A DNA stretch of 56,547 nucleotides from IMG/VR virus record IMGVR_UViG_3300003894_000008, positions 1 through 56,547 of that record; one strand, 5' to 3'. The stretch comes from a virus. A program made the position numbers and the translations under genes. The notes under the pieces are model-generated. The model was given only the letters and a program-made list of their open reading frames with translations, was not told where the DNA came from and made no database searches. Every line of letters starts with the position of its first letter. Positions within the stretch are counted from its first letter, which is position 1. Positions 8,862-15,127 of this stretch are shown in pieces.

Positions 8862-9626
8862 ATGGCTTACGGTCGCGATGGCATCGGCAATGAGGGCGGT
8901 CAGACTGGCGGGGGCCATGCTGGTGACGGTTCTGATCACGAGTTAGGTGCTGCCGCACAGGCCAACCGCTCGCGGGAGGGCAGGGTTGGTCAGGAGATAC
9001 GTGACCGTGCTGCTGCTGCGGAACGGGTTGAGTTACGTGCGAAGGAAGAGCGTGCCAAGCGAGCACGCGCCAAAGAGATTGAAGATATTTCGTTGTTTAA
9101 GGAGGCCCAGCAAAGGGGTGTCTGGGGTGCGGCATTAAACCATGTGAAGGGTTTGTTGCCTGGTGTGAATGTTCAGGCGAGGAATTACAAGAATGCGACG
9201 ATCAAGGGGCAACCGATTGATGCCCCGAATGTTGTTGATGTCAGTGCGGCTCGTGCTGTTGGTGACGTTATGGGCTTGGCTTTTGGTGTTCCTGGGGTGG
9301 GTGACGTTGCTGACGCTGCTACGAAGTCCATTGGTTTTGATACGACGGTTAATGATTACACGAAGGGCATGAGTGGTCCGAGCAGCACGCCTTCCAAGAA
9401 GGGCACGCCTGTTGGCGGTGACACCACTTTCGCGTCACGAGTCGCTGCTCCGACGACATCGGTAGCTCAGGCGGCACCGGCTCCAACGGGGAGTTACGGC
9501 ACGTCTCCGAGTGGTTTGTTGAGTAAGAACGTTGATTTATCGGCTTCACGCATTGAGCGGTTATCGCCGGTAGATCGGTTTCGGTCTGATTATTACAACG
9601 GTTATTATGGGAACAGGTACGGATGA
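8862..9626 (+). CDS. Hypothetical protein before small terminase, 254 aa
   Basis: The N-terminal third is Gly-rich then a charged Arg/Glu/Ala helix (about residues 35-80). The middle holds a Gly-rich hydrophobic segment (AVGDVMGLAFGVPGVGDVAD), and the C-terminus is low complexity ending YYNGYYGNRYG. GAGG precedes the ATG. The hydrophobic glycine segment resembles those of ejected virion proteins, but the position upstream of the terminase is unusual for that. No family recognised. Confidence 0.7.
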   Translation: MAYGRDGIGNEGGQTGGGHAGDGSDHELGAAAQANRSREGRVGQEIRDRAAAAERVELRAKEERAKRARAKEIEDISLFKEAQQRGVWGAALNHVKGLLPGVNVQARNYKNATIKGQPIDAPNVVDVSAARAVGDVMGLAFGVPGVGDVADAATKSIGFDTTVNDYTKGMSGPSSTPSKKGTPVGGDTTFASRVAAPTTSVAQAAPAPTGSYGTSPSGLLSKNVDLSASRIERLSPVDRFRSDYYNGYYGNRYG

Positions 9627-10210
9627 AGCGGTCGAGGGAAGAGCGCAAGGCTGAGAATTTGGCTGTTAAGGAGAATGAGATTGCTGTTGTTGCGGCTGAG
9701 AATGAGGCCAAGCGCGGCATGACGACGGTTCCGACGCCTTACAGTCCGGAGGTTGCTGAGGAGATTTTCGAGTGTCTGGCGAATGGTCAGAGTTTACGGG
9801 AGATCTGCAAGCGGCCTGAGATGCCTGCCCGTGGGAATGTTTACGCTTGGATACGGCATAATACGAATGGCTTTGCGGATCATTGGCGTGATGCGAAGCT
9901 GGCTGGCATTGAGTCGTTGGCTGATGACATTCTTGACATTGCTGATGATGGCACGAACGACTGGATGGAGCGTGCTGGCAAGGATGGCAAGGTTGAGGTT
10001 GTTGCTGACAAGGAGCATATTCAGCGTTCCAAGGTCCGGATTGACACGCGCAAGTGGTTGTTGGCGAAGTTGCTTCCGAAGGTTTACGGGGACAGTACGA
10101 AGGTACAGGTTGAGGATGTTACGGTTCGGGATCTGTCGGACGACCAGTTGCTGAAGAAGATTGCTTCGATGCAGAAGGTTATCGCTGATGGCACTGTCAT
10201 TGACGGCTGA
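9623..10210 (+). CDS. terS: Terminase small subunit, Sf6 gp1-like, 195 aa
   Basis: Residues about 40-75 form a helix-turn-helix (VAEEIFECLANGQSLREICK then PARGNVYAWI), and the C-terminal half has RSKVRIDTRKWLLAKLLPKV followed by YGD, both diagnostic of Sf6 gp1-like small terminases. This protein recognises the packaging site and hands DNA to the large subunit. It overlaps the upstream gene by ATGA, and its last 23 codons overlap the start of the large-subunit gene. Confidence 0.88.
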   Translation: MKRSREERKAENLAVKENEIAVVAAENEAKRGMTTVPTPYSPEVAEEIFECLANGQSLREICKRPEMPARGNVYAWIRHNTNGFADHWRDAKLAGIESLADDILDIADDGTNDWMERAGKDGKVEVVADKEHIQRSKVRIDTRKWLLAKLLPKVYGDSTKVQVEDVTVRDLSDDQLLKKIASMQKVIADGTVIDG

Positions 10211-10949
10211 TTCTTCTGGTTTGGCTCAGTTGAGTCGGAAAGAGCTTGAAGAGTACATGGCTGCTCTTGAGGAGCAGAAGCGGCGGATACAGCGGCGGTA
10301 TTACTACACGTTGTTTCCGGATGATGGGCCGTTGCGGCGGGATTTATATCCGAAGCACGTAGAGTTTTTTGCTGCTGGCATTGATTGTCGGGAGCGGTGT
10401 TTTATGGCTGCCAACCGTGTTGGCAAGACGGTTTCCGGTGGTTTTGAACTGACGGCTCACTTGACGGGTGAATATCCTGACTGGTGGGAGGGTCGGCGGT
10501 TTGACAGGCCGATACGGGCTTGGGCTGCTGGTAAGACGAACGAGACGGCGCGAGATATTGTCCAGATGAAGTTACTGGGGAAGATCACGCACGCTGATGG
10601 GCCGAGGAAGAAGCCTGACGGCACTGGAATTATTCCTGGTGATCTGCATGGCAGTTGCACATGGAAGCAGGGCATCACGGATTTTATTGATACGATTTAT
10701 GTGAAGCATGTTCCGACTGGCGAGTGGTCGCTGCTGGGGTTGAAGTCCTATCAGCAGGGGCGCGGGTCGTTTGAGGGAACGGAGCAGGATGTTATCTGGC
10801 TGGACGAAGAGCCGCCGGAGGATGTTTACGGTGAGTGTTTAATCAGGACGGCGACGACGAAGGGGTTGATTATGTTGTCGTTTACGCCGTTGGAGGGCAT
10901 GTCGTCGGTTGTGTTGTCGTACATGCCGCAGGAGATCAGGCCGGATTAG
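10188..10949 (+). CDS. terL: Terminase large subunit, N-terminal ATPase part, 253 aa (split gene)
   Basis: The ATPase motor of the packaging terminase. Walker A is AANRVGKT at residues 74-81, Walker B is VIWLDEE with D206/E207, and SFTPLEG at about 231-237 is the coupling motif. The frame stops at 10949 just after the ATPase domain, whereas large terminases normally continue into an RNase H-like nuclease. That nuclease lies in a separate ORF at 12307-13053, 1357 bp away. The start at 10188 has AAGG 9 nt upstream. Two-chain function is inferred. Confidence 0.88.
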   Translation: MALSLTADSSGLAQLSRKELEEYMAALEEQKRRIQRRYYYTLFPDDGPLRRDLYPKHVEFFAAGIDCRERCFMAANRVGKTVSGGFELTAHLTGEYPDWWEGRRFDRPIRAWAAGKTNETARDIVQMKLLGKITHADGPRKKPDGTGIIPGDLHGSCTWKQGITDFIDTIYVKHVPTGEWSLLGLKSYQQGRGSFEGTEQDVIWLDEEPPEDVYGECLIRTATTKGLIMLSFTPLEGMSSVVLSYMPQEIRPD

Positions 10950-11004
10950 GTTCGCCGCTAAATAGGCGCGACGGCTGCTACGGTAAGCGGCTACTGGGGC
11001 AATT

Positions 11005-11175
11005 ATGAAAATAGTTTTGTTGATTGTGACGTTGTATTTCGGCGGCGGTGAGTTGCGGTTGATTGCTGGAATCACGCATGAGGCAAGGGCCTGCGCGGAG
11101 ATGCGGCAGGATCTGTTAAGGGAAAACACGCTCTTGGTTGAGGGTGATGTGCGCTGCGCGAGGATTACGTTGTAG
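11005..11175 (+). CDS. Small protein in terL insertion, 56 aa
   Basis: Starts MKIVLLIVTLYFGGGELRLI, a hydrophobic N-terminus that could be a signal or anchor, followed by a charged segment with two Cys (HEARACAEMRQDLL and GDVRCARITL). The stop abuts the ATG of the next gene at 11176. The ribosome site is weak (GGGG). Function unknown; possibly periplasmic. Confidence 0.6.
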   Translation: MKIVLLIVTLYFGGGELRLIAGITHEARACAEMRQDLLRENTLLVEGDVRCARITL

Positions 11176-11493
11176 ATGAAAAACAAGGCGGCTGAGGCAG
11201 GCAGGGACGGTCACAACTGGCTCTCTAATGGTCGGTCGCTGCGTGAGGAGCTGGGTGACTGGCTATCTCCGAGGGACACTTCGGAGGAGGATCAGGCGAT
11301 TGAGGATCTGAAGGCTGTTTTGCAGGCGATCATCAAGATCCGGCAGGAGCGTAATGAGTTCATGCGGAATAACCCGCAGCACACGATGAGGGCTGAGGTT
11401 GAGTTTGATGTCGAGAGGCGGATTGCGCTCCTTTCGCGGGAGGGTGATTGCATTCTGGCATTCCTTGAGGCGCTGAACGGTAAGCCGCGATGA
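11176..11493 (+). CDS. Hypothetical protein in terL insertion, 105 aa
   Basis: A mainly helical, charged soluble protein starting MKNKAAEAGRDGHNWLSNG. Residues 40-100 look like two long amphipathic helices (AIEDLKAVLQAIIKIRQER and VERRIALLSREGDCILAFLE). It overlaps the next gene by ATGA. No family recognised. Confidence 0.7.
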   Translation: MKNKAAEAGRDGHNWLSNGRSLREELGDWLSPRDTSEEDQAIEDLKAVLQAIIKIRQERNEFMRNNPQHTMRAEVEFDVERRIALLSREGDCILAFLEALNGKPR

Positions 11494-11624
11494 CGGACTT
11501 GCAGGCGATATTACTGGGTTTTGGTTGGGGCGCTTTTATCGGCGTCCCTTTTGGTTATGGGGTTGTTGCGATTCTGTGGCGCATCGAGAAGCGCAGCATG
11601 GAGAAAGAGGGGAAGAATGGTTGA
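11490..11624 (+). CDS. Single-span membrane protein in terL insertion, 44 aa
   Basis: Starts by ATGA overlap at 11490 and reads MTDLQAILLGFGWGAFIGVP onward, giving one transmembrane segment (about residues 5-30) followed by a basic tail (RIEKRSMEKEGKNG), so the tail is probably cytoplasmic. Too small to place in a family; a holin-like or membrane-modifying role is only a guess. Confidence 0.6.
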   Translation: MTDLQAILLGFGWGAFIGVPFGYGVVAILWRIEKRSMEKEGKNG

Positions 11625-11817
11625 TTATGCAAGGCGGGATTTCCGCAAGTGGCAGAACAGGCCGCGAGGCACGGCGGAGATTTCGCCGGAAGCAGTTGAG
11701 CGCTTGGCTGAAAAGCGGAGGGCGCTGGTTATTAAACGACAGAATCGGTATGCGCGAGCGCACCCAGGAGAGTTCCTGAGTCGCAAGGAAACGCCGCGCC
11801 ATATTGCGGAAGGGTAG
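11617..11817 (+). CDS. Basic small protein in terL insertion, 66 aa
   Basis: The start at 11617 (MVDYARRDFRKWQNRPRG) has AGAGGGG upstream and overlaps the membrane protein gene by 8 nt. Strongly basic and helical (VERLAEKRRALVIKRQNRY). Possibly nucleic-acid binding. A longer frame from 11521 has no ribosome site. Confidence 0.65.
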   Translation: MVDYARRDFRKWQNRPRGTAEISPEAVERLAEKRRALVIKRQNRYARAHPGEFLSRKETPRHIAEG

Positions 11818-11822
11818 ACGTT

Positions 11823-12011
11823 ATGGGCCAGCGTGATCGTTACGGAGAGATCGCACTGGGGATTGCGTCAAGGGAACTTAGCAGGGAATGCGAACACGGT
11901 TATCGCCGCTCACAACTGGCATGGCGCTGGGTTGATGTGATGGCGCATGACCATGAATTGCAATTACCGCCAGAAGAGATGGAAGAGTATGAGAGCCTTC
12001 AAGATCGTTGA
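11823..12011 (+). CDS. Hypothetical protein in terL insertion, 62 aa
   Basis: Begins MGQRDRYGEIALGIASREL. Mixed-charge, helical, soluble; no motif recognised. Its last 23 nt overlap the start of the next gene in another frame. Confidence 0.6.
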   Translation: MGQRDRYGEIALGIASRELSRECEHGYRRSQLAWRWVDVMAHDHELQLPPEEMEEYESLQDR

Positions 12012-12306
12012 GGCCGATGAGGCTGGTATACGGACGTTATTTCACGGCCTGAACGGCAGTCGCACGATTGAGAAGGGTGTATGGCTGAAGGCTGACAAGA
12101 AGATGGTTAAGGATGGCACCAGCAAGACCACGTACTTGTCTGGCTGGCATGTTCTACCGACCTATGAGGACTGCGCGGAATACATGACGCGGTTCACGAA
12201 GCGTCTTGATTTGCTGAAGATTGTTGAGTGTGAGGTTCGGGATACGAGGCCGAAGGAGCATTCTCCGTCGCCAGTGTTGCTGGCTGATTACATGAAGTTG
12301 GTTTAG
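11989..12306 (+). CDS. Conserved phage protein with LFHGLNGSR motif, 105 aa
   Basis: The start at 11989 (MRAFKIVEADEAGIRTLFHG) follows GGAAG. LFHGLNGSRTIEKGVWLKAD and YLSGWHVLPTYEDCAEYM are characteristic of a family of about 100-aa phage proteins of unknown function found in many alphaproteobacterial and environmental phages. The stop directly abuts the start of the terminase nuclease ORF, so expression is probably coupled. Confidence 0.8.
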   Translation: MRAFKIVEADEAGIRTLFHGLNGSRTIEKGVWLKADKKMVKDGTSKTTYLSGWHVLPTYEDCAEYMTRFTKRLDLLKIVECEVRDTRPKEHSPSPVLLADYMKLV

Positions 12307-13053
12307 ATGCCGAGAATTAGCGCATCGAAATATCTGGTCAACGCTGGCTGGGATGATGTGCCGCATCTTGACGAACAAACGAAGTCGGAATTGCTGGAAG
12401 CAACGCCGCCGTTTCTGAGGGACGCCAGAACGAAGGGCATCCCGTCGCTGGGGGCTGGTGCGATTTATCCGGTTGTCGAGAGTTCTGTTGTCTGTGATCC
12501 GTTTGAGATCCCTGAATACTGGCCCCGCTGTTACGGGCTTGACGTTGGCTGGAAGAAGACGGCGGCTGTGTGGGGCGCTTGGGACCGTGATGATGATGTT
12601 GTTTACATCTACACGGAGCATTACCGAGGGCAGGCAGAACCGGCGATACACGCGGCTGCGATTAACGCTCGCGGCACATGGATACCAGGAGTTATTGACC
12701 CCGCCAGTCGCGGCAGGGGTCAGAAGGACGGCGAGATGCTGTTCGAGGAATATGAGGGCCTTGGTCTAACGCTAGACAAGGCTGACAACGCCGTGGAGGC
12801 AGGCATTCACAAGATCTGGATGCGGCTTTCAACGGGCAGGCTAAAGATCTTTAGCACTTGCCAGAACTGGTTTTCGGAATATCGGCTTTATCGCCGGAAC
12901 GAGAACGGCAAGGTCGTTAAAGAGTTTGATCACTTAATGGACGCCACTCGCTACATGATTGCGAGCGGCTTGGACGTTGCGGAGGTTCAACCGATGAATC
13001 GGAGTTCCTTCACGACAAGGCCACACGCAGGCGACCAAGTAGCGGGATATTAG
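12307..13053 (+). CDS. terL: Terminase large subunit, C-terminal nuclease part, 248 aa (split gene)
   Basis: The RNase H-like headful nuclease that normally follows the ATPase in one chain. Acidic motifs are seen at GLDVGW (D79), VIDPASRG (D131) and EFDHLMDATRYM (D208/D212), the order expected for a terminase nuclease. The leading WDDVPHL and RDARTKGIPSLGAGAIYPV are linker and nuclease features of intact large terminases. The ATG follows directly after the previous stop with only a weak ribosome site. With 253 + 248 aa the two parts add up to a typical 500-aa enzyme. Confidence 0.88.
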   Translation: MPRISASKYLVNAGWDDVPHLDEQTKSELLEATPPFLRDARTKGIPSLGAGAIYPVVESSVVCDPFEIPEYWPRCYGLDVGWKKTAAVWGAWDRDDDVVYIYTEHYRGQAEPAIHAAAINARGTWIPGVIDPASRGRGQKDGEMLFEEYEGLGLTLDKADNAVEAGIHKIWMRLSTGRLKIFSTCQNWFSEYRLYRRNENGKVVKEFDHLMDATRYMIASGLDVAEVQPMNRSSFTTRPHAGDQVAGY

Positions 13054-13054
13054 T

Positions 13055-15127
13055 ATGAGCAACGGAAAAACCGACGCAAAGACGAAAGCGCCCATCGAGG
13101 AACAGATGCGTGCGATTGTTTATTCTTTGCAGACGCTTGCTGATGAGCAGGTGAAAAAGAAGGTTAGCACGGAAGACCGCTGGCTTGAAGATCTACAGAA
13201 TTATCATGGTCAGTATGATGCGGATACGCTGGCTAACTTAAAGGCGTCGAACAGTTCGCAGGTATTTGTGAATCTGACTCGATCAAAAACGAACGCTTGG
13301 GAAGCGCGTCTTTCAGACATGCTGTTTCCGACCGATGATAAGAACTGGGGCGTTAAACCGACGCCGGTTCCTGAGTTGGCTCAGGCGATTCAACGGGGTG
13401 ACGACACCGCACCTGATGAACATGCGGTAGCAGAAACTTCATCGAAAGCGATGGAGATTGAAATTGAGGATCAGTTTCGCGAGTGTCGTTACAACATAAA
13501 ATCGCGTGACATCATTCGCGACAGTTGTGTGCTTGGTTCCGGCATTATGAAGGGGCCGCTCACGTCTGAAAAAATGAAGCGCAAGTGGGTCGCTCCGCAG
13601 GAGGGTGGAGCGTTCGAGTTGACGCAGGTTGCAGATCCTGCGCCGAGCATGGAATGGGTTGATCCTTGGAATTACTTCCCTGACATGAACGCTCGCCGCA
13701 AGGGTGAGGAGGAATTTGAGTTCGAGCGCCACCTTCTGAACAAGAAGAAGATGCGCCAGCTTGCGAAGCGCCCAGGATTTTACAGGGACGCCATTCGCGA
13801 GATTCTGAAAGAAGATGCGGCGGAAGGCTTGCCTTCTTACGTTGCCCAGTTGAAGGCGATCACGGGCAGCGGCGAAACGATTGATCAGCGGTATCATGTC
13901 TGGGAATACCACGGTCCGATATCCGGTGAAGATCTGAAGTTGCTGTGTGAATGCCACGGCGAAAATGAGATGGCGAAAGCCTATGAGGATGATCCGCTTG
14001 AAGAGCTGAACGTGATTGTTTGGTTTTGTCAGGGCAAGATCCTGAAGTTTGCCGAGCATCCGCTCGACAGTGCCGAGAGCATGTACAGCGTGTTTAATCT
14101 GGAAAAGGACGACAGTTCCATTTTCGGTTATGGCGTGCCGTACCTGATGCGGAACAGCCAGAAGGTTATCAACTCTTCATGGCGCATGGTTCTGGACAAC
14201 AGTGGCCTTTCGACGGGACCGCAGGTTGTTGTGAACAACCAGATGATTGAGCCTGCTGATGGCGACTGGAAGCTGACGCCGCGCAAGTTGTGGAAGGCCA
14301 AGAACAAGAGCAATATCCCGATGGATCATGCTTTCAAGGTCTATCACATTGACGGCAGGCAGGAGCAATTGCTTCGCGTGATTGACGTTGCAAAGAGCTT
14401 TGCTGACGAAGAGACGAACCTGCCGTTGGTTGCGCAGGGCGAAAGCGGCTCGCACCAGACGCAGACATCCGGTGGCATGTCGATGCTGATGAACAGCGTC
14501 AACGTGGTTTTCCGGCGCGTTGTTAAGAACTTTGACGATGACTTCACCACGCCGAACATCCGGCGCATTTACGACTGGAACATGCAGTTTTCACCGAAGG
14601 AGCACATCAAGGGTGACTATGCTGTTGATGCTCGTGGTTCGAGCGTTCTCCTGGTTCGTGAAGTGCAGGCGCAGAACCTGATGCAGATCTTGGTTCAGTT
14701 CTCCGCGCATCCGGTGCTTGGTCCTTTGACGAAGGCTGCGAGCGGGTATCGCCAGATGGCGCAGGCTCACATGCTATCGGCTGACAGTCTGGTTAAGACT
14801 GATGAGGAACTGGAACTTGAAGCGAAGCAGGCGGCAGAAAATCCGCCTCCGCCAGATCCGGAAACAATGAAGATTCAGGCGCAGATGGAGCTTTCCAACA
14901 TGGAGTTGGAGGGCAAGATTGCGCTGGCAGAGATGGATCGCGAGACGAAGCTTATGGCTCTTGCGGCACAGAACGATATGCGGCTTGAAGATCTGCGCAC
15001 CAAGCTTGGTATGCACCAGATCGCCATCGACTCCAAGGAGCGTATGGAGCAGCACAAGACGGCTTCCAAGGAGCGGATCTTTGCTGCCGAAGCTGGCATG
15101 AAGCAGAAATACGGTGAGGGCATCTAA
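13055..15127 (+). CDS. Portal protein, 690 aa
   Basis: The dodecameric DNA gate at the head vertex. Length and context (directly after the large terminase, before scaffold and capsid) fit a podovirus portal of the P22/Sf6 type. The N-terminus (TEDRWLEDLQNYHGQYD) and central DDSSIFGYGVPYLMRNSQKV are typical. The last 120 residues are a long charged Met/Gln-rich coiled coil, as in the barrel region of P22-type portals. The stop overlaps the next start (TAATG). Confidence 0.88.
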   Translation: MSNGKTDAKTKAPIEEQMRAIVYSLQTLADEQVKKKVSTEDRWLEDLQNYHGQYDADTLANLKASNSSQVFVNLTRSKTNAWEARLSDMLFPTDDKNWGVKPTPVPELAQAIQRGDDTAPDEHAVAETSSKAMEIEIEDQFRECRYNIKSRDIIRDSCVLGSGIMKGPLTSEKMKRKWVAPQEGGAFELTQVADPAPSMEWVDPWNYFPDMNARRKGEEEFEFERHLLNKKKMRQLAKRPGFYRDAIREILKEDAAEGLPSYVAQLKAITGSGETIDQRYHVWEYHGPISGEDLKLLCECHGENEMAKAYEDDPLEELNVIVWFCQGKILKFAEHPLDSAESMYSVFNLEKDDSSIFGYGVPYLMRNSQKVINSSWRMVLDNSGLSTGPQVVVNNQMIEPADGDWKLTPRKLWKAKNKSNIPMDHAFKVYHIDGRQEQLLRVIDVAKSFADEETNLPLVAQGESGSHQTQTSGGMSMLMNSVNVVFRRVVKNFDDDFTTPNIRRIYDWNMQFSPKEHIKGDYAVDARGSSVLLVREVQAQNLMQILVQFSAHPVLGPLTKAASGYRQMAQAHMLSADSLVKTDEELELEAKQAAENPPPPDPETMKIQAQMELSNMELEGKIALAEMDRETKLMALAAQNDMRLEDLRTKLGMHQIAIDSKERMEQHKTASKERIFAAEAGMKQKYGEGI

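Follow-up and report, generated by a model that had tools for sequence, protein, structure and literature searches.

A predicted two-gene large terminase in an environmental phage record and its relatives, divided within the ATPase domain

In textbook phages the large terminase (TerL), which pumps DNA into the shell, is one protein, and this one gene is a common marker for classifying phages. The locus described here raises the question of how a TerL is to be understood when its motifs lie on two open reading frames (ORFs) with other genes between them. It is found in IMG/VR record IMGVR_UViG_3300003894_000008; "the window" is the whole stretch of DNA analysed, 56,547 nt long, and coordinates count from its position 1. 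A preliminary description of this DNA placed Walker A and Walker B motifs in one ORF and RNase H acidic residues in another, with 1357 bp and six small ORFs between them, and its coordinates and motifs were right. The reading we favour, with a probability of roughly 0.86, is a genuine two-cistron TerL in which the upstream ORF (N-ORF) would supply the P-loop core and the downstream ORF (C-ORF) the last strand of the ATPase domain, the lid, the linker and the nuclease, the two chains docking non-covalently into one motor subunit. The features concerned are:

10188..10949, plus strand: TerL N-ORF, with an ATG start and a TAG stop (Terminase_6N, 7e-13; family profile positions 6-234 of 484).
10407..10430, plus strand: Walker A, AANRVGKT, read from the sequence; N, R, G and K are nearly or fully invariant in intact relatives.
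10788..10811, plus strand: Walker B and catalytic Glu, DVIWLDEE, read from the sequence; D182, E183 and E184 are invariant in intact relatives.
10878..10898, plus strand: coupling motif, SFTPLEG, read from the sequence; T, P and G are invariant in intact relatives.
10950..12306, plus strand: inserted segment of 1357 bp between the two TerL ORFs.
12307..13053, plus strand: TerL C-ORF, with the last ATPase strand, lid, linker and RNase H-like nuclease (Terminase_6C, 2.2e-14; family profile positions 242-474 of 484).
12328..12456, plus strand: C-ORF residues 8-50, the last strand and lid of the ATPase domain, from alignment with intact relatives, the model of an intact relative and the P74-26 ATPase domain match; low confidence when folded without the partner.
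12541..12942, plus strand: nuclease acidic residues D79 (12541), E104 (12616), D131 (12697) and D212 (12940), invariant in 20 split relatives.

A family TerL profile of 484 positions, built from 66 intact relatives, was searched against all six frames of the window. It recovered exactly two pieces, positions 6-234 and 242-474, and no second or complete TerL elsewhere in the window. The two pieces lie in different frames, 1357 bp apart, and are not the single polypeptide that is usual, though not strictly defining, for a TerL; between them they have a P-loop core with Walker A, Walker B with its Glu and the coupling motif, the RNase H-like acidic residues, and joint coverage of the full-length profile. 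The window is predicted from these features to encode a genuine two-cistron TerL, both pieces of which keep all their catalytic motifs. The window shares its motifs, its predicted folds and the order TerS - TerL - portal with the P22/Sf6-like TerLs that have Terminase_6N and Terminase_6C domains (intact relatives include EBPR podovirus 1 gp39 and Chlorobiaceae phage CV-1-33), and the highest-scoring structural match is to the P22 nuclease domain (4dkw, Z 25.6). The P22/Sf6-like TerLs are, however, single chains, whereas the window chain is cut inside the ATPase domain and has six genes in the gap.

In TerLs the ATPase, made up of an ASCE core and a lid, is followed by a linker and then by the nuclease, and the lid is believed to relay the power stroke (review: PMC5727402). 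In an alignment of split with intact relatives the junction always falls within one variable surface loop. In an AlphaFold2 model of an intact relative (L043; mean predicted local distance difference test score, pLDDT, 91) this loop comprises residues 222-234 and joins the helix that follows the coupling motif to strand 235-240; beyond the break lie that strand, putatively part of the core sheet, helices 250-270 and, from about residue 300, the nuclease. Structure comparison aligned the P74-26 ATPase domain to residues 22-276 of the intact relative (Z 21.1), and Pfam Terminase_6N spans residues 55-285 of the intact protein. Matches to NAT10 and to small subunit (SSU) processome structures were discarded as generic P-loop folds. 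The cut lies, then, within the ATPase domain and not at the border between ATPase and nuclease, and the N-ORF consists of the N-terminal helices and the ASCE P-loop core up to the helix after the coupling motif. Because the last strand and the lid sit on the C-ORF, the N-ORF alone would be an incomplete motor and should not suffice as a complete one. Folded alone, the window C-ORF has a pLDDT of 31-65 and no strand over residues 1-50, and above 90 over most of the nuclease; the simplest reading of this model is that the first 50 or so residues fold only upon the partner chain.

These results bear on what the two ORFs are. The preliminary description took them for the ATPase and nuclease domains and proposed that motor and nuclease could be regulated separately. 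A free-standing motor and a free-standing nuclease, each expressed and controlled on its own, would be in keeping with ORFs that have their own start codons and lie 1357 bp apart in the window, but the chain is broken within the ATPase domain, with the lid left on the nuclease ORF, and the N-ORF match to Terminase_6N covers only profile positions 1-145 of 215, as against 212 or 213 in intact relatives. Since the ATPase itself is divided between the ORFs, separate control of motor and nuclease is very unlikely; the domain assignment needs correcting and the proposal of separate regulation is not supported. The halves probably form one composite motor.

The survey of related phages that the preliminary description called for covered viral contigs, scanned with the C half and the N half, and bacterial genomes, scanned with a C-half alignment. 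Relatives were sorted by whether or not both halves lay in one ORF, and removal of near-copies left 153 non-redundant TerLs. Half of these (77) are split, always in the same loop, and 76 are intact; 32 of the split forms have gaps of -23 to +8 nt, many of them -4 overlaps of the ATGA/GTGA kind, and 45 have gaps of 68-6138 bp. The window falls within a well-supported (starred) set of 38 rows in the tree, all of them split, whose known hosts are mostly Alphaproteobacteria (Azospirillum, Metarhizobium, Aminobacter, Fulvimarina, Sphingopyxis and Novosphingobium). Over the sampled family, well-supported branches force at least six changes between the intact and split states; in a larger tree parsimony gives 13, with at least five forced. 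The tree gives no direction of change, and some of the changes may be re-fusions. A second search used a full-length profile, which presumes no break point, on 385 genomes of the class of Azospirillum agricola. TerL was carried by 21 of them, as one frame in 11 and as pieces in 10; both halves were found in eight of the latter (one with two such pairs) and a single half in two, and every piece ended at profile positions 231-243 or started at 235-244. Judged from these sequences, the split is old, clade-wide and recurrent.

Several of the relatives are prophages or metagenome assemblies, and the split might for that reason be put down to a decayed or defective gene, disabled in a dead prophage, or to an assembly error. 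This is highly improbable, as the approximately 38 diverged clade members are all split with invariant catalytic residues, and the ratio of nonsynonymous to synonymous substitution rates (dN/dS) is well below 1 in both halves wherever dS is unsaturated (0.05-0.49). The arrangement is also present in whole genomes: in twelve bacterial genomes (11 titled as isolates and one uncultured Kordiimonas assembly) an N part and a C part each occur once, without any intact TerL. In Endozoicomonas gorgoniicola the halves lie 10 nt apart on a closed circular plasmid-phage, where they are annotated as "terminase family protein" and, for the second half, "hypothetical protein". In GenBank MW202785 two adjoining ORFs are both named large terminase.

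Could the two ORFs nonetheless yield one chain? A group I or group II intron, spliced out so that TerL is made as a single protein, has precedents. In Jug phages and Bastillevirinae the terL coding sequence is, as in the window, interrupted by other DNA, which in those phages is a group I intron (PMC12363816, PMC11878797), and in herpesvirus UL15/UL89 the terminase large subunit gene is likewise in two coding parts, with several whole genes inside the intron (PMC6466031). In the former, however, the insertions commonly carry endonuclease genes and a single chain is regained by splicing, and in the latter splicing gives a single chain in eukaryotic cells, unlike the two-chain TerL proposed for the window. 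Rfam gave no match at the gathering threshold in the window, and a permissive search of 10.7-12.5 kb gave one chance-level snoRNA match (E = 1.2); neither the window nor the insert has an Rfam intron. No homing endonuclease or transposon cargo was recognised among the small ORFs of the window, nor among 30 insert ORFs scanned with Pfam and 10 with PHROGs. Further, relatives with the same break have ORFs that abut or overlap by 4-23 nt, which leaves no room for an intron. The inserts are largely unlike one another, with similarity in only 17 of 990 pairs, and the C-ORF start codon is conserved: 42 of the 44 clade members have a start codon in that alignment column, which in intact proteins is usually a gap and never Met. 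We regard splicing of the window TerL as highly improbable, about as much so as decay.

Joining at the ribosome or after translation is less probable still. Frameshifting or stop-codon readthrough could produce a fused protein in the overlapping relatives, whose frames differ by a short overlap, and in the uncultured Kordiimonas assembly (L167), whose halves share a frame with a single TAA before the second ATG. It is impossible for the window and for 44 other relatives with inserts of at least 68 bp; in the window the frames differ and the intervening 1357 bp contain stop codons. As a general account of the split it has next to no chance of being right. A split intein could join the halves by protein trans-splicing, and inteins are known to interrupt phage terL genes (PMC5050341). 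No intein domain was found in Pfam and PHROG scans of the window proteins, and only a few residues flank the junction on each side, comparable to the ordinary loop length of intact relatives; as the flanking residues amount to an ordinary loop, we consider an intein excluded for practical purposes. The Rfam, Pfam and PHROG scans, the loop-length comparison and the overlapping split relatives all agree with the earlier observation that intron and intein features are absent, and the non-covalent assembly of the halves that the preliminary description proposed stays the best inference.

Several relatives show how the state of the gene may vary. L225, from a prophage of Cupriavidus basilensis KF708, is an intact TerL nested among split ones, and its linker holds SRVSDSKYLVMAGWDDV, which resembles the start of a split C-ORF; linker and position suggest re-fusion of a split gene. 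L111 and L116 are sister rows of which one is an intact TerL and the other is split by an insert of 348 bp; they are 85% identical in the N half and 75% in the C half, a comparatively recent change of state. One alphaproteobacterial genome (G346, contig C3, 17768-19229 and 563039-564375) has two different prophages, both with a split TerL. In the Azospirillum agricola prophage (L005/L165) the N half groups with L001/L031/L035/L095 and the C half with other Azospirillum phages; identity to L168 is 70% for N and 88% for C, one apparent exchange of half a terminase. A general reassortment of halves was considered, as in gapped forms the N and C distances seemed to vary independently of each other, but well-supported conflicting branches were no commoner than in intact controls, and only the L005/L165 case was kept.

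The remaining features of the window locus are the genes within the insert and those on either side of the TerL ORFs:

9623..10210, plus strand: terminase small subunit (TerS) gene (Pfam Sf6_terminase, 9.1e-35; PHROG 1482, 8.4e-39).
11005..11175, plus strand: small ORF 1 (56 aa), no recognised family.
11176..11493, plus strand: small ORF 2 (105 aa), no recognised family and no relative in viral contigs.
11490..11624, plus strand: small ORF 3 (44 aa), hydrophobic, with an ATGA overlap with ORF 2.
11617..11817, plus strand: small ORF 4 (66 aa from the ATG at 11617), in a frame open from 11521.
11823..12011, plus strand: small ORF 5 (62 aa), no significant Pfam or PHROG match.
11989..12306, plus strand: small ORF 6 (105 aa), in a frame open from 11947; its stop, TAG, is immediately followed by the C-ORF ATG.
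13055..15127, plus strand: portal / head-tail connector gene (PHROG 332, 1.6e-38; Pfam SU10_portal, 4.6e-08).

The 3' end of TerS shares 23 nt with the start of the N-ORF, and the portal gene stands directly 3' of the C-ORF in the window and in most split relatives in which a portal was detected. The six small ORFs abut or overlap except for one 5-nt gap. Pfam and PHROG scans gave no significant match for any of them (for ORF 4 the scan used the longer frame, 11521-11817, in which it is contained), and a search of viral contigs with two of them found no relatives. The insert proteins that were recognised among the relatives are phage-like: a gp49/gp66-family protein, a beta-helix protein and a virion structural protein. 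Between the halves, promoters and terminators were no more frequent than expected by chance. Two relatives have long minus-strand ORFs in the insert (L005, 5088-5984, and L031, 3713-5476), for which no family was matched; if these are real genes, the halves may need separate promoters there.

The preliminary description had coupled translation of the nuclease ORF to the last inserted gene, and the C-ORF is indeed placed for this, its ATG following directly on the stop of ORF 6. Counting as coupled any C start at most 12 nt after, or at most 8 nt before, the stop of the upstream ORF, such starts are found in 29 of the 45 inserted relatives but in only 198 of 1475 random downstream ATGs. Coupled translation of the C-ORF is therefore likely. 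Three points weigh against the account given here. Sites resembling a Shine-Dalgarno sequence precede 31 of 77 split C starts, only a modest enrichment over the corresponding position of intact genes (18 of 76) and over random codons (15%); the low confidence of the lone C-ORF model may partly reflect its shallower alignment (20 rows as against 66); and the window is an environmental record, which may not represent a viable phage.

We found no report of an intron-less two-gene TerL in the open-access literature, in which intron-split terL and other split phage enzymes were found. The closest parallels to a two-chain TerL are the "genes in pieces" Aeh1 NrdA, T4 topoisomerase gene 39/60 and phage 25 gp43A/B, in which a conserved enzyme is made as two chains that reassemble without splicing; two-chain activity has been shown for Aeh1 NrdA and phage 25 gp43 (PMC2988022). 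Those enzymes have replication or nucleotide functions and are linked to homing endonucleases, whereas the window has a packaging motor with no endonuclease found, and its break recurs in many lineages with variable cargo. For the split TerLs, too, the sequence evidence favours chains that would be translated independently of each other. The two-gene form of TerL is, on the evidence of these sequences, real, old and recurrent.

We propose that TerS, the N-ORF, the cargo genes, the C-ORF and portal would share one late packaging transcript, from which the N and C polypeptides would be translated separately, translation of the C-ORF often being coupled to termination at the gene before it. The two chains would then dock non-covalently and rebuild a complete ATPase subunit of the motor. 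The fission may have begun as overlapping or abutting ORFs, the junction later turning into a slot where cargo genes come and go, the six small ORFs of the window among them. Abutting split forms occur both near and inside the all-split clade, in keeping with a route that led from overlapping ORFs to a cargo slot.

A broader suggestion, tentative and on balance doubtful, is that phage packaging motors have a natural breakpoint, used repeatedly, in the loop between core and lid, that the lid-nuclease subunit is a separate and exchangeable part with a supply or identity open to control independently of the core, and that the gap is a standing entry slot for cargo in the packaging operon. A two-cistron TerL would have consequences for annotation, as in many alphaproteobacterial and some gammaproteobacterial prophages TerL is overlooked or wrongly named by automated annotation, and would identify a cargo slot in the packaging operon. 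It would mean that a supposedly indivisible molecular motor tolerates construction from parts. The split clade would then be a natural split motor, in which the way ATP hydrolysis, lid motion and nuclease are coupled could be tested directly by mixing and exchanging the parts.

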